A stretch of DNA of 64,000 nt from Planktothrix rubescens CCAP 1459/22 (lineage in GTDB: Bacteria > Cyanobacteriota > Cyanobacteriia > Cyanobacteriales > Microcoleaceae), in NCBI GenBank assembly GCA_904830895.1, contig LR882958.1:4483501-4547500 (forward strand), given 5' to 3'. The translations under genes and the position numbers were made by a program. The notes beneath the pieces are model-generated. The model was not told the DNA's origin and ran no database searches. It saw nothing but the letters and a program-made list of their open reading frames with translations. This document shows positions 17,944 through 22,366 of the stretch, in pieces (position 1 is the stretch's first letter; the number at the start of each line of letters is the position of its first letter).

Positions 17944-18639
17944 ATGTCATCCACACCTTCTATAGATGCTTCTAGTTCTATTTCTTCTGCGACTGAAACC
18001 GTTGAAAAAACTCGTTTACTCTTGACATTATGGGCAATGAGTTGTACTGAGGGAACGGTTAAAAAAAGTGAATTGACGAGTAAAGTTAAGCAAAAACGCA
18101 AGGGGAAAAATGTTGGTGTTTCTCAAAGTCTTTACGACGAACTGCAAGCGGCGGATGTCATCAAAATTTATAAGCAAAATCAAACGCCTATGGTATCACT
18201 CACCGATACCGGAAAACAAATATTAATTGATTCGTTAATAAATCCTGACTTTGTTTTTGATGCAACGGTTGTGGCGGCTCGGTTAGCCAATGGGTTAATT
18301 GCGTTAATTCGAGAACTGCATCAAGGAGGAATTCCTCTAACATCTGTTAAACAAGTTACCATCGCTTCTTATGAGGAGTTTAAAGCGATCGCCCTTCAAG
18401 TGTATGATCAATTAAATAAAGATTATAACTATGATAACTTAGTCCCGATTTATCGCATTCGTCGGACTATCGGTGATCAGGTTAGTCGTTCACAGTTCAG
18501 TGAATGGATGTTAGAAATGCAAGCTAACGATATTTTTCAATTGATTGGAGGTAGTGTAGAAGATAGCGCGTCAGATAAAATTGAAGATTCTATTAGCACA
18601 GAACTGGTTGGCTTACGTTGTTATGCTAAACGGTTATAA
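17944..18639 (+). CDS. Winged-helix-like protein, first gene of putative nuclease/ATPase cassette
   Basis: A 231-residue protein using ATG at 17944, which gives a typical Ser-rich flexible N-terminus; an upstream in-frame TTG at 17911 is less likely. Residues ~25-105 read as a winged helix: TEGTVKKSELTSKV (helix), QSLYDELQAADVIKIY (recognition-type helix) and the wing TPMVSLTDTGKQIL. The rest is helical. It is not matched to a named family. It is followed 45 bp later by a P-loop ATPase and then a nuclease-like gene, all on one strand, so it could be the DNA-binding or regulatory subunit. Divergent from the M32 peptidase. Confidence 0.65.
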   Translation: MSSTPSIDASSSISSATETVEKTRLLLTLWAMSCTEGTVKKSELTSKVKQKRKGKNVGVSQSLYDELQAADVIKIYKQNQTPMVSLTDTGKQILIDSLINPDFVFDATVVAARLANGLIALIRELHQGGIPLTSVKQVTIASYEEFKAIALQVYDQLNKDYNYDNLVPIYRIRRTIGDQVSRSQFSEWMLEMQANDIFQLIGGSVEDSASDKIEDSISTELVGLRCYAKRL

Positions 18640-18684
18640 AATTTCTAATTTGTTCATTATTCACCCCTTATTTTTGGTTAAATT

Positions 18685-20553
18685 ATGACTGCTTCTGAGT
18701 TTAGTAAGATTGACGATCTGATTCAGCAATATAACCCGTTTGCTGGACATACAGTAGTTAGAAATTCTCAAGTTTGGAATAAAAGTTTACCCGATGCACC
18801 CTCGATTAATGCTCATGTTTCTGATACAGTTTTTGATGTTATTAATAAAATCAATCAAAACTCTATGCAAACTGTAGGGATTACAGTTGTTGGTGAACGA
18901 GGATTAGGCAAAACTCAAGTGATTAGTCGCATTCGCCATCATTTTAAACCAACCGATCAAGTTTTGTTTATCTATATGGGAGACTATGGCGAAAAACTAT
19001 CTAAAATCAAAAGTAAATTTCTGGAGAACCTAACTTCAAGTTTAAGAGCCTATGGTCAATATGAAGGAATCATGCAATGGCAAGAAATAGCTGCTCATTT
19101 AATTAATGAAGCTAAAGGATGGAACTATACCGCAGAACAATATATTCAAAGATTTCCTGAGTGGTTAAATAAATATTCAACTAAGGCTGTTGATCATTTT
19201 ACAGACTTAATTTTTCCCAAACAAAATCAAATCATTGAAAATCCATATATAGTCAGAGCTATTTTATGGACACTTTCTCGTCCCCACGCCATGTATGCAA
19301 CTTATTGGTTATCGGGAATGGAGTTAGCAGAAAGACAAGCTCAAGATATGGGATTACCAAACTTCAAAACTGGAGAAAAAGAAGTAGAATCTTTTAAGAC
19401 AACTTGCCAAATTCTGAATTTAGTTAGTGAATATAAAATACCAGTTATCTGTTTTGATGAACTTGATGCACCTTTGTTTGATGAGTTAACGGGTTTTTCC
19501 TTACCCCAAATCATTGCTAGTTTCGCTAAAGATTTATTCAATAACATTAAGCGGGGTTTATTTGTTCTGGCAATGTATGAACCTACTTGGTTACAGGATG
19601 TTAAATCTTTGCAACAAGCAGAAGCAGTTATCCATAGAATTGCCAATTATCCTCAATTGGGAAAACCGATTTATTTAAACTATTTAAAGCCAGATGATAT
19701 CATCGCATTAGTATCTCAATGGTTAAAGGAATTTTACGCCCAGCATCAAGTTGTTCCTCCTCATCCTTTATATCCATTTACGGAAGCTCAACTCATAGAA
19801 TTAGGGAAGCAAAGACCAATGACTAGAGATGTTTTAAGTTGGTGTGCTTCCCATTGGAAAAAAGACAAAATTGATTCTCCAGCTAACCTAGTTAAACCTG
19901 CTTTTGAAAATGAACTCGCAGAAATTGAACAGAAAATTACTGACCTTTTAGAAGACAGTGATAAACTGGCTGAAACCCTTGCTTTTAGCTTTGAACAGAT
20001 CATCGGAAAAACGATTGAAAATGTCAAAGTTGAAAGTATTCAAAGATTTAAACAAAACGCCTGTTATCTTCATTTCAAAATCAATGGAATAGAAAACGGT
20101 CAACCTGTTAAAATTGGATTAGCTGTGATTCAACAATCAGGAGGAGCTATAGTCCAAGCTATTCTTAAACAACTGGGAGATTACAAAAAATTTGATTTAA
20201 CGCGAGGGTGTTTAGTTCGGTCTAAAAAAATTGGTTCTAATGCCAGATCAGCGCAAAAATATCTTAAAGAACTGCAAGACGAAAAAGGTGGGGAATGGGT
20301 TCGCTTACCAAAAGAAGATATTAAACCTTTATTAGCCATATACGCAGTTTACAAAAATCAAGAAAGTTATGGGGTAAAACCAGAACAAATTTTTGACTTT
20401 ATCGAAAAATCAGAATTAGTCCTTAAAAATCCGATCATTTGTGAAATTCTGAGTGACCCTTCCGGCCAAGCACCCGATGGTCTAATTGATGAAGATATCC
20501 CCATTATTATTCCTCAATCTACCTCTAGTTCAGATAGTGACTTAATCCTATAA
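18685..20553 (+). CDS. AAA/STAND-type P-loop ATPase, middle gene of the cassette
   Basis: A 622-residue protein. Walker A GERGLGKT lies at residues 70-77 and Walker B VICFDELDAP at 254-263. These are followed by a helical region and a VIHRIANYPQLGKP arginine-containing segment like an AAA sensor. Residues ~430-580 form a separate alpha/beta domain (LHFKINGIENGQPVKIGLAVIQ, a hydrophobic strand pattern without obvious acidic active residues), possibly a degenerate nuclease-like fold. The gene starts 45 bp after the winged-helix gene and ends 14 bp before the nuclease ATG. It looks like an energy-using module that acts with both neighbours; the substrate is unknown. Confidence 0.75.
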   Translation: MTASEFSKIDDLIQQYNPFAGHTVVRNSQVWNKSLPDAPSINAHVSDTVFDVINKINQNSMQTVGITVVGERGLGKTQVISRIRHHFKPTDQVLFIYMGDYGEKLSKIKSKFLENLTSSLRAYGQYEGIMQWQEIAAHLINEAKGWNYTAEQYIQRFPEWLNKYSTKAVDHFTDLIFPKQNQIIENPYIVRAILWTLSRPHAMYATYWLSGMELAERQAQDMGLPNFKTGEKEVESFKTTCQILNLVSEYKIPVICFDELDAPLFDELTGFSLPQIIASFAKDLFNNIKRGLFVLAMYEPTWLQDVKSLQQAEAVIHRIANYPQLGKPIYLNYLKPDDIIALVSQWLKEFYAQHQVVPPHPLYPFTEAQLIELGKQRPMTRDVLSWCASHWKKDKIDSPANLVKPAFENELAEIEQKITDLLEDSDKLAETLAFSFEQIIGKTIENVKVESIQRFKQNACYLHFKINGIENGQPVKIGLAVIQQSGGAIVQAILKQLGDYKKFDLTRGCLVRSKKIGSNARSAQKYLKELQDEKGGEWVRLPKEDIKPLLAIYAVYKNQESYGVKPEQIFDFIEKSELVLKNPIICEILSDPSGQAPDGLIDEDIPIIIPQSTSSSDSDLIL

Positions 20554-20567
20554 ATTCTTTGATTCAG

Positions 20568-22061
20568 ATGACTACAATTTCAACAGCTTTGTGTCTACCT
20601 GCACCTGATATTGAAGCCTTAAACCAAGGTCGAAATATATTGTTAATGCCTCGGCGATTTATGCGCCTAGGGGAACAATTTGCCCTATATCCAACAAATA
20701 TAGAATTTAATTCCTTACCCTTAGAACAATATTATCGTCCGGGTTTTATTCCAATTGCTAAACAGAGTATTGCAGAACTCAATCAGGATAAAGTTAAAAT
20801 TAAAGTTTGGGCAAAATGTGAACTTTGCCAAACATTGGATCAACCAGAGGAGTTTGAAACCTTATCAAAATTAACCGTTTGGACAGCAGCAGCCTTACAC
20901 AAAACCCTAGAACAACGGGGTCATATTTTTCTGGCTTATTTTCGCGTTTATCGACTTCCCCAACCCCTAGAAATTGATCCAGTTTCTAATAGTCGGTTTA
21001 TTTCCCTTCCCCATTCCATAATGGTTGATGAAAGTCAGGCAATTTTAGACGATAATAACTTTGAAAGACAATATCGAAAAATACTAAATCGTCAACCGCC
21101 TGAACATCCTGAATTAGAAGAATTAGAAAATGCGATCGCCCAATACCCCAATGATAATCTATCCCAAAAAGAACAAATTGGTTTACAACAATTAAAAGCA
21201 AATATTCATTATTTCTTGGGTTGGAAAACTGCATCTAGTTTAAATTCAAACCAGGTAGACTTAAATTGGATTAACACAATTACAACATTAGGAAACCGGA
21301 GTAAAGAACAAGATGAAGGAAAAACTAACTATCAAGCGGGAACCGATTTTGAGAATATTGTTAAACAAAGCTTAGAATTTTTAGGTTTTACTATAGACTA
21401 TGCTCATAAAGGAGGTGCAGGTGGATTAGACTTATTTTGTTCACAACCCTATCCCTTAGTAGGAGAATGTAAAGCTGGGAGAAAAATCCCTAATCCTACA
21501 GTCGTTCAACTCTTGAATTTAGGAACACTGCGTTTAAAGGATGAAAAACTGTTCAAAGACGCCATTAAATTAATTATAGGCCCTAGTGAACCTACTCAAC
21601 AAATGAACGAGGCAGCAAAAGTACATAAGATGACAATTATTAATCCTGAAACATTAGAAAAGCTCGTTAAACTCCAAGCTCAATATCCCGGTTCAGTTGA
21701 CTTAATTGAACTCAAAAAGTATTTTAAAAAAAAGAAAGAGGATCAAGAGGAATGGGGTCAAATGGATGATAAAATAGATGAATATATTGAAACTGTAATT
21801 AAAGACTTAAAATTGCGATCGCATATTATTCAAGTGGTTAAAAACTATCTAAATAACGCTCAAATGACAGAAGCAACAGTTTCAGGAATTCATGGACTTT
21901 ATTGTTCTAATCCCCCTCAACCCTTATCACCAAAGCAACTCCATGAAATTCTGATCGAACTATCTTCCCCTCTAGCCGGGTATTTAGGACGAAACAGAGC
22001 AGATGATTGGCGCAATGATAGCTTTTATTATCTAAGAGAACTCATAGTAGACCAAAGCTAG
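20568..22061 (+). CDS. DUF1802-like protein with PD-(D/E)XK nuclease domain
   Basis: A 497-residue protein starting at ATG 20568 (a TTG nine bases earlier is less likely). The N-terminus, DIEALNQGRNILLMPRRF and FALYPTNIEF, matches the DUF1802 pattern. The middle has the restriction-endonuclease core: GTDFENIVKQSLEFLG (E262), GGAGGLDLF (D288) and GECKAG (E300-x-K302), i.e. E...D...ExK of the Mrr-like class. It is followed by QLLNLGTLRLKDEKLF and a NPETLEKLVKLQ helix. A charged linker and a ~90-residue C-terminal domain complete it. All predicted catalytic residues are present. Its operon partners are the ATPase and winged-helix genes. Confidence 0.8.
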   Translation: MTTISTALCLPAPDIEALNQGRNILLMPRRFMRLGEQFALYPTNIEFNSLPLEQYYRPGFIPIAKQSIAELNQDKVKIKVWAKCELCQTLDQPEEFETLSKLTVWTAAALHKTLEQRGHIFLAYFRVYRLPQPLEIDPVSNSRFISLPHSIMVDESQAILDDNNFERQYRKILNRQPPEHPELEELENAIAQYPNDNLSQKEQIGLQQLKANIHYFLGWKTASSLNSNQVDLNWINTITTLGNRSKEQDEGKTNYQAGTDFENIVKQSLEFLGFTIDYAHKGGAGGLDLFCSQPYPLVGECKAGRKIPNPTVVQLLNLGTLRLKDEKLFKDAIKLIIGPSEPTQQMNEAAKVHKMTIINPETLEKLVKLQAQYPGSVDLIELKKYFKKKKEDQEEWGQMDDKIDEYIETVIKDLKLRSHIIQVVKNYLNNAQMTEATVSGIHGLYCSNPPQPLSPKQLHEILIELSSPLAGYLGRNRADDWRNDSFYYLRELIVDQS

Positions 22062-22366
22062 GGTTTTGATTACAATTTGTAAAGCAGGTTGACATCAAAA
22101 CCCATTCGCTTGACTATGAACTACCCCAGAACATCCAGTAACTTCCCCATTAACCTTGATTTCCTCCCCCCCGATGTCATCCCCTTCACCGGAAATAAAT
22201 TAATTAGTGAGTTAAGGTACGGCTCAATAGTTCCATTTAGTATCAAAACTAATAATAATTGATCAAGTTATTACTTTTTCATTCCTTAACAGGAACATTT
22301 TGATTTATAATCGGACAAGAGAAATCCCGATTAACCGAAATCATCTAATTCCAGCTAACAATTGCT
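22062..22366. other. Intergenic region after the cassette, 305 bp
   Basis: Begins with an inverted repeat, GGGTTTTGAT at 22061-22070 and ATCAAAACCC at 22093-22102, that could form a terminator-like stem with a long loop. The rest is AT-rich before the lipoprotein gene. I see no convincing coding sequence or RNA gene in it. Confidence 0.5.

Follow-up and report, generated by a model that had tools for sequence, protein, structure and literature searches.

The operon analysed here lies in a window of 64,000 nucleotides from Planktothrix rubescens CCAP 1459/22 (contig LR882958.1) and consists of three genes that encode, in this order, a winged-helix-like protein (WH), an AAA+ ATPase and a fusion of a DUF1802 domain with a predicted nuclease. 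The open reading frame listing puts gaps of 45 and 14 bp between the genes, as a preliminary description of the same DNA had placed them, and the anatomy that it proposed (a putative DNA binder, an ATPase and a DUF1802-joined nuclease with an intact motif) is borne out at the level of sequence. The features are given below in window coordinates.

17944–18639, + strand: WH, a small winged-helix-like putative DNA-binding protein of 231 aa (open reading frame; conserved position before the ATPase)
18496–18636, + strand: C-terminal tail of WH, residues 185–231, start of cassette 1 (drop in DNA identity; covariation with the ATPase)
18685–20553, + strand: Orc1/Cdc6-like AAA+ ATPase of 622 aa, core of cassette 1 (AAA_22, AAA_16, AlphaFold, Foldseek)
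18892–18915, + strand: Walker A, GERGLGKT (conservation in 101 operons)
19450–19467, + strand: Walker B, CFDELD (conservation in 101 operons)
19957–20484, + strand: C-terminal alpha/beta domain of the ATPase, a possible inactive restriction-endonuclease fold (predicted model)
20568–22061, + strand: DUF1802–nuclease fusion protein of 497 aa (open reading frame; pLDDT 88)
20586–21074, + strand: DUF1802 domain, putative reader with ASCH/PUA-like fold, closing cassette 1 (PF08819; Foldseek)
21084–21302, + strand: linker of the fusion protein, comparatively constant among strains (r = 0.59 with flank identity)
21303–21692, + strand: PD-(D/E)XK nuclease domain, cassette 2 (invariant motif; r = 0.06 with flank identity)
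21465–21473, + strand: catalytic E-C-K (E300, C301, K302; invariant in 101/101)
21750–22058, + strand: C-terminal winged-helix domain of the nuclease protein, cassette 3 (Foldseek; exchange in L164/L170)
18500–21300, no strand: exchange block, DNA identity about 40–75% to the same-species genome G194 (neighbouring blocks 90–100%)

The winged-helix label given earlier to the first gene is plausible, on weak profile matches (Pfam DUF6293_C, 0.025; DUF4364, 0.054) and further matches to S10/RIO2 winged helices (0.3–0.4). Almost every locus has a WH homologue immediately 5′ of the ATPase. The N-terminal part of the protein (approximately residues 1–180) is a constant anchor, with residues 20–180 tracking flank divergence (r = 0.74), and hhalign found no relation between WH and the winged helix of the nuclease protein.

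The ATPase matches AAA_22 (Pfam, 0.00036), and 26 of 28 homologues have AAA_16. Foldseek matched its AlphaFold model (pLDDT 86) chiefly to Cdc6/Orc structures (Cdc6p 1fnn, 7.3 × 10−4), with TnsC also among the structural neighbours. Both Walker motifs were confirmed, and their key residues are invariant in 101/101 operons (G73, G75 and K76 in Walker A; F257 and D258 in Walker B); position 77 is S or T, and position 259 is E in 91 operons and Q in 10. Loci L199, L200, L202, L203 and L204, which are apparently the same as L109, L110, L117, L155 and L069, were not recounted in this set or in the approximately unbiased (AU) tests below. The separate C-terminal alpha/beta domain noted at the outset is also present, with its elements ordered alpha-beta-beta-beta-alpha-beta in the predicted model. 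It lacks an ExK motif and may be an inactive restriction-endonuclease fold, judging from that model; a relationship to the nuclease domain was rejected, as hhalign gave no profile similarity. Stops or frameshifts break the ATPase in L083, L091 and L095 (L083 and L118 look identical to each other), and the operon is therefore dispensable.

The N terminus of the third protein is a DUF1802 domain, as first proposed (PF08819, E = 8.9 × 10−33, residues 7–169). Its predicted fold resembles ASCH structures (Foldseek probability 0.99–1.00, E = 6 × 10−3); because profile–profile comparison with cyanobacterial ASCH domains by hhalign gave below 1%, we leave this relation at the level of fold. The proposed complete E...D...ExK core corresponds to E262, D288, E300 and K302, which, together with C301, are invariant in 101/101 operons, so the core is kept in homologues. 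As the Pfam match to Mrr_cat is weak (E = 0.023), assignment as a nuclease is based on motif conservation within a predicted alpha/beta domain. The C-terminal winged helix has Foldseek matches to those of Cdt1 and Orc1. Sequence and profile searches against solved structures returned nothing significant.

The order and linkage of the three genes are far beyond chance. Among 194 sampled cyanobacterial genomes, 31 of the 32 that carry the nuclease have all three genes, which establishes the suspected co-occurrence and co-localization, and this order is found repeatedly in cyanobacteria, with a patchy presence in the phylum. Within Planktothrix the operon belongs to the core, being carried by 9/9 complete genomes, and it occupies fixed chromosomal sites in many filamentous cyanobacteria, syntenic over a deep clade. 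Housekeeping genes surround it (fpg, for example, in Nostocales), so the locus is not a classical defence island. Neither the operon nor the genes that recur beside it encode a methyltransferase or specificity subunit, and no relative was found in phage, plasmid or viral-contig collections. Tandem cassettes are present in L197, L111 and L124. In a sister operon (WH′–ATPase′), the third gene encodes an SspH-like PD-(D/E)XK/FtsK nuclease-translocase (SspH model, 2.5 × 10−66), and at one locus (L105) a DpdE/DrmD-like PLD-SNF2 helicase comes after the same WH.

What is new here is the evolution of the operon, namely allelic cassette shuffling at a fixed site. In a same-species genome pair, flanking proteins are 98–100% identical and nuclease domains 93%, and the ATPases only 34–40%. 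Compared with G194, a genome of the same species, DNA identity falls from about 99% through 77% to about 50%, starting at position 18500 within the WH tail. The divergence of the ATPases is replacement rather than drift, because 34% identity occurs within 99% identical flanks in one species. Three cassettes have been separately exchanged and reassorted: the WH tail with the ATPase and DUF1802; the nuclease domain; and the C-terminal winged helix. The C-terminal part of WH, the AAA part, the ATPase C-terminal domain and DUF1802 covary (r = 0.65–0.84; WH tail with ATPase, r = 0.80), whereas their correlation with the nuclease domain is r = 0.11–0.27. Over 973 locus pairs, correlation with flank identity is weak for the AAA part (r = 0.24) and absent for the nuclease domain (0.06), and AU tests reject a shared tree among segments. 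Planktothrix contains all four combinations of WH N-terminal types a and b with ATPase types I and II, and the two ATPase types are likewise found in all four pairings with nuclease types alpha and beta. In other genera (replicates in Anabaena, Scytonema, Nostoc and Microcoleus), five additional pairs show separate exchange of cassette 1, 2 or 3, the last nearly alone in L164/L170. Exchange by parts has produced novel combinations of alleles that are discrete and far diverged. This shuffling, the main feature of the locus, lay beyond the reach of the single sequence on which the preliminary description was based.

That description regarded the system as undescribed, which needs correction: section 22 of Rakesh, Aravind and Krishnan (NAR 2024; PMC10853773) mentions, in one clause, operons of an Orc/CDC6 ATPase, an ASCH-REase and a DndG-like triple-wHTH protein, predicted to act against invaders, and by description the three gene kinds are the same. 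Our ATPase likewise falls in the Orc/CDC6 clade by Foldseek, with AAA_16 or AAA_22 in most homologues, and the active REase has its predicted counterpart in the domain with E262, D288, E300 and K302. Where that operon type has an inactive REase after the AAA+ domain, ours has the alpha/beta domain without ExK; its ASCH-REase fusion may correspond here to an ASCH-like fold that profiles do not recover, and its triple-wHTH protein to WH with weak winged-helix matches. Those operons are placed in mobile neighbourhoods; ours, in contrast, sits at fixed sites. The available main text mentions neither cyanobacteria nor DUF1802 and reports no fixed site, allelic variation or cassette exchange for this operon type. 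Membership of a known system was also not indicated by Pfam, NCBIfam, PADLOC or PHROGs, in agreement with the earlier view (PADLOC gave marginal matches for the ATPase, and none for WH or the nuclease). A VMAP/MoxR-type conflict system (PMC7159879) was rejected, as there is no vWA or MoxR component.

We consider it probable that the operon encodes a DNA-cutting complex directed against invaders and diversified by cassette shuffling. The Orc/Cdc6-like ATPase would load on DNA with WH, the ASCH/PUA-like DUF1802 domain would read a chemical or structural feature of that DNA, and the attached nuclease would then cut DNA that is presumably invading. Recognition may reside in cassette 1, which covaries as a unit. 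Homologous recombination within the constant segments could exchange the cassettes, and phages or other elements probably drive the process by favouring rare alleles (frequency-dependent selection). Related strains that swap cassettes are what one would expect if the locus were engaged in an arms race with phages or other invading DNA, and the defence role first suggested for these genes gains support from this swapping at a fixed site, from the SspH-like sister operon and from L105, although the activity itself is predicted. A precedent is the enterobacterial immigration control region, at which a fixed site with conserved flanks holds highly divergent alternative systems (hsd, mrr, mcrBC and gmrSD in E. 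coli), explained by negative frequency-dependent selection (PMC12707154); here, a single operon without methyltransferase or HsdS exchanges internal cassettes instead. Several observations count against a complex directed at invaders: the neighbours are housekeeping genes and no phage, plasmid or viral-contig relatives were found; a methyltransferase that could spare self DNA is absent; strong variation also affects the nuclease cassette, which presumably has no part in recognition; the ASCH relation is at fold level only; and broken loci indicate dispensability.

A possible special case of this reading, which we hold with some reserve, is modification-dependent (type IV) restriction resembling McrBC or PUA/EVE-nucleases, in which DUF1802 would read modified phage bases and an AAA+ ring would position the nuclease. 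The predicted ASCH/PUA-like fold and the missing methyltransferase fit, as does an extra C-terminal domain common to the ATPases of L085, L092 and L197b, with a sub-threshold Pfam match to SeqA-C in L085. PUA-superfamily readers fused to nucleases are described as established enzymes of this kind (PMC7897488), and type IV nucleases (McrBC, Mrr, EVE-HNH) share a nuclease with a possible PUA-like reader and, in McrBC, an AAA+ partner; the ATPase here is of another clade and the reader function is putative. Against it, the ASCH relation is absent from profiles, a pure modified-base reader has no obvious need for such allelic diversity, and standalone DUF1802 proteins, common in cyanobacteria, allow some other ancestral role. 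Type I restriction–modification differs in having a methyltransferase and specificity subunit.

Alleles might alternatively mark strains, with the nuclease attacking DNA of non-matching neighbours and social conflict, not phages, maintaining the diversity. A core yet hypervariable operon at one fixed site in filamentous hosts, with no phage or plasmid copies, suits such kin discrimination, which is nonetheless unlikely: the operon has no secretion or immunity gene, and a nuclease with an Orc-like ATPase better fits an intracellular DNA target.

It is more doubtful that the operon serves a phosphorothioate (Dnd) system as its restriction arm and leaves sulfur-modified self DNA uncut, in the way reported for SspFGH and DndFGH. 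DndC is present in 10/10 genomes of the genus and in 27/33 sampled operon carriers, the sister operon includes a gene for an SspH-like protein, and those modules also have three genes with a Walker-motif protein (SspF, DndF). DndC, however, is near-core in the order, and we rejected dependence on phosphorothioation, as DndC is not associated with the operon within the order (Fisher P = 0.32); carriers G051, G133, G159, G027, G033 and G060 have no DndC over the cut-off. The dnd locus of the host lies elsewhere on the chromosome, with its own PT-DNA-binding nuclease-like gene, the Ssp and Dnd models of PADLOC recognize neither our ATPase nor our WH, and the FtsK/HerA translocase is missing here but present in the sister operon. 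Equally doubtful is a selfish or domesticated mobile element with a TnsC-like ATPase, whose nuclease would drive its own replacement by gene conversion and leave diversity as a by-product: the TnsC likeness and tandem cassettes are compatible, but the sites are syntenic over a deep clade, all three genes are conserved and exchange is piecewise rather than of the whole operon. A merely fast-evolving housekeeping complex for DNA maintenance, for which core status in Planktothrix and neighbours such as fpg speak, is most improbable given ATPase replacement, patchy presence and tolerance of broken copies.

More tentatively, the invader-directed complex can be seen as an innate-immunity locus that filamentous cyanobacteria share lineage-wide and diversify by combination, in which three independently exchanged cassettes with constant anchors at one fixed site would let a single restriction-like machine, lacking a methyltransferase, take many allelic forms. 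If this is right, bloom-forming and other filamentous cyanobacteria possess, as part of their core gene set, a DNA-targeting system in which cassette exchange renews the alleles within species, and this would help to account for strain-level differences in susceptibility to phages or plasmids. It would also offer a testable role for DUF1802, a source of new nucleases and a natural experiment for locating the determinant of specificity in a restriction-like machine; the allele pairs found, one of them within a species, permit a direct swap test.

The preliminary description proposed three tightly spaced genes, and we recovered all three open reading frames at the same positions, with gaps of 45 bp (WH/ATPase) and 14 bp (ATPase/nuclease).

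Window 17944–18639: WH, a winged-helix-like protein, with sub-threshold Pfam matches only
Window 18685–20553: AAA+ ATPase, with a sub-threshold match only (Pfam AAA_22)
Window 20568–22061: DUF1802-nuclease, matching DUF1802 (Pfam, E = 8.9e-33), the nuclease itself matching only below threshold (Mrr_cat, 0.023)
Window 22116–22195: directly 3' of the operon, a phosphatase-like gene represented by a remnant of its initial codons; related strains (L069, L109 and L110) have it whole

The operon lacks a methyltransferase, and NCBIfam, PADLOC and PHROGs returned no system name for it. AlphaFold models of the nuclease protein and the ATPase are confident (pLDDT 88 and 86, respectively). The ATPase model is most similar to Cdc6/Orc, with TnsC a more distant match; its C-terminal domain appears to have its elements arranged as in a restriction-endonuclease fold, without the catalytic motif, and profiles gave no support for this fold. 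The best structural matches of DUF1802 are ASCH/PUA-like (probability 0.99–1.00, E only 6e-3); comparing its profile with those of cyanobacterial ASCH proteins revealed no relationship. Structure comparison likens the nuclease C terminus to Cdt1/Orc winged helices. The active sites are conserved: nuclease residues E262, D288, E300, C301 and K302 and the Walker A residues of the ATPase are invariant across 101 operons. Standalone DUF1802 proteins are common in cyanobacteria, for example a 194-aa protein in the window's own genome (L225, G000:C1:968749-969276).

The three genes are linked. Among 194 genomes sampled across the phylum (one per species, one pair excepted; some drafts; genes called as simple ORFs), 32 have a full-strength nuclease match, and in 31 of them the other two proteins match strongly as well; G153 and G133, which deviate, lie at contig ends. 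Genome G066 has an ATPase paralogue alone and G129 a WH with a different partner. The order WH, ATPase, nuclease holds wherever the contig is long enough, tandem (L197, L111 and L124) or truncated variants being rare. A GTDB genome scan yielded 263 confirmed relatives, of which the best 80 were retained, all of them bearing cyanobacterial names; searches of viral contigs, plasmids and phages gave no relative. All nine complete Planktothrix genomes carry the operon.

Its chromosomal sites are fixed. In Nostocales the operon is flanked by mraY, a PAP-type gene, fpg and mdh to one side and by pgi and liv genes to the other; in Microcoleus-like genomes gpmI/nudix/rhodanese genes flank it at one end and Uma2/PAS genes at the opposite end. 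A further check confirmed the main gene names. In Nostocales a small gene pair (clusters c7 and c8) recurs just 3' of the operon (L130:3479-3796, L098:6208-6570 and others), one member being weakly aspartyl-protease-like.

Within these sites, three cassettes are exchanged: WH tail–ATPase–DUF1802 (cassette 1), the nuclease domain (cassette 2) and the C-terminal winged helix (cassette 3). Between the window and G194, a genome assigned to the same species, neighbouring genes are 98–100% identical and the ATPases 35%. DNA identity is ~99% up to 18500 (with a 93–96% stretch from 18300), ~40–75% from 18500 to 21300 (end of WH, ATPase, DUF1802 and linker), 90–96% across the nuclease domain, 77% near 21900–22000 and 98–100% past 22100. 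The AAA part of the window's ATPase shares 34% identity with its same-species counterpart and 56% with one from Gloeocapsa. Across 101 operons, identities of the WH tail, AAA, ATPase C-terminal domain and DUF1802 covary (r = 0.65–0.84), and the nuclease domain is nearly independent of them (r = 0.11–0.27). Correlations with flanking-gene identity (973 pairs) are 0.74 (WH N terminus), 0.59 (linker), 0.24 (AAA) and 0.06 (nuclease domain). For AAA and for the nuclease domain, identity between operons sharing a site follows a multimodal distribution, indicating discrete alleles, and these reassort in Planktothrix. In AU tests each segment's tree was rejected for all other segments; rejection was weakest when the nuclease domain was tested against the ATPase tree (p = 0.046). 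The exchange pattern recurs outside Planktothrix.

Allele combinations and exchanged parts, by locus
WH N terminus (a/b) with ATPase (I/II), Planktothrix: window, aI; L201 (G194), aII; L110, bI; L109, bII
ATPase (I/II) with nuclease (alpha/beta), Planktothrix: window, I-alpha; L201, II-alpha; L069, I-beta; L155, II-beta
L151/L180 and L112/L113: differ in cassette 1
L183/L187: differ in the nuclease domain alone
L164/L170: differ mainly in the C-terminal winged helix
L078/L137: differ in both nuclease domain and C-terminal winged helix

WH and the ATPase also have relatives in a second, sister operon of cyanobacteria (hhalign probability 98.0 and 99.8; ATPase E = 4e-30), which was not found together with the three-gene operon in any sampled genome.

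Sister operon loci: L251:2503-7552; L252:4710-7729; L253:6577-11970; L254:6218-11658; L255:6614-9431

Three of these five loci include a third gene, which joins PD-(D/E)XK and FtsK parts (plus a DEDD exonuclease in two of the three) and whose product matches SspH at up to 2.5e-66. At L105:9211-13376, a WH adjoining the Microcoleus-type site's rhodanese gene is followed by a 1,097-aa PLD-SNF2 helicase with DpdE/DrmD-like matches, which replaces ATPase and nuclease. The WH–ATPase core, or WH alone, thus pairs with different nucleases, which supports a DNA-targeting role.

Several other relatives were observed. Longer ATPases carry an additional C-terminal domain (L085:4237-6672, L092:9545-11947 and L197:7137-9632), with a sub-threshold SeqA-C match in L085 (E = 6.6e-5). 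Solitary ATPase paralogues of ~30% identity (L093:8785-10695, L100:8063-9973 and L090:8858-10795) have R where Walker B normally has glutamate (FDRL) and adjoin neither a WH nor a nuclease gene, and a distant relative (L108:6750-9152) has, by eye, an apparent N-terminal 3'–5' exonuclease-like domain. Proteins of 101–102 aa resembling the WH N terminus lie near a BnzB-like gene (L256:4425-7095, PADLOC E = 4.1e-62; L257:5262-7994), and at L258:3346-6862 a WH-like protein precedes an NTPase and a 5mC DNA methyltransferase.

The operon is unlikely to need phosphorothioation. The window's own genome does encode DndC, DndD and DndE with a PT-DNA-binding restriction endonuclease-like gene (L281:8391-13937; G000:C1, about 5266390–5271936), and all 10 genomes of the genus have DndC, but some operon carriers lack DndC and the two show no association within the order.

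By description rather than accession, the operon appears to fit an operon type of Rakesh et al. 2024 (PMC10853773), in which an Orc/CDC6-clade ATPase accompanies an ASCH-REase and a DndG-like triple-wHTH protein and for which those authors predict an anti-invader role; neither "cyanobacteria" nor "DUF1802" occurs in their main text. In the literature searched, DUF1802 is mentioned only in a soil gene-network study. In its evolutionary behaviour the operon resembles the enterobacterial immigration control region (PMC12707154). We infer that the operon serves in defence; recognition would reside in cassette 1, and the exchange may be driven by selection favouring rare alleles.
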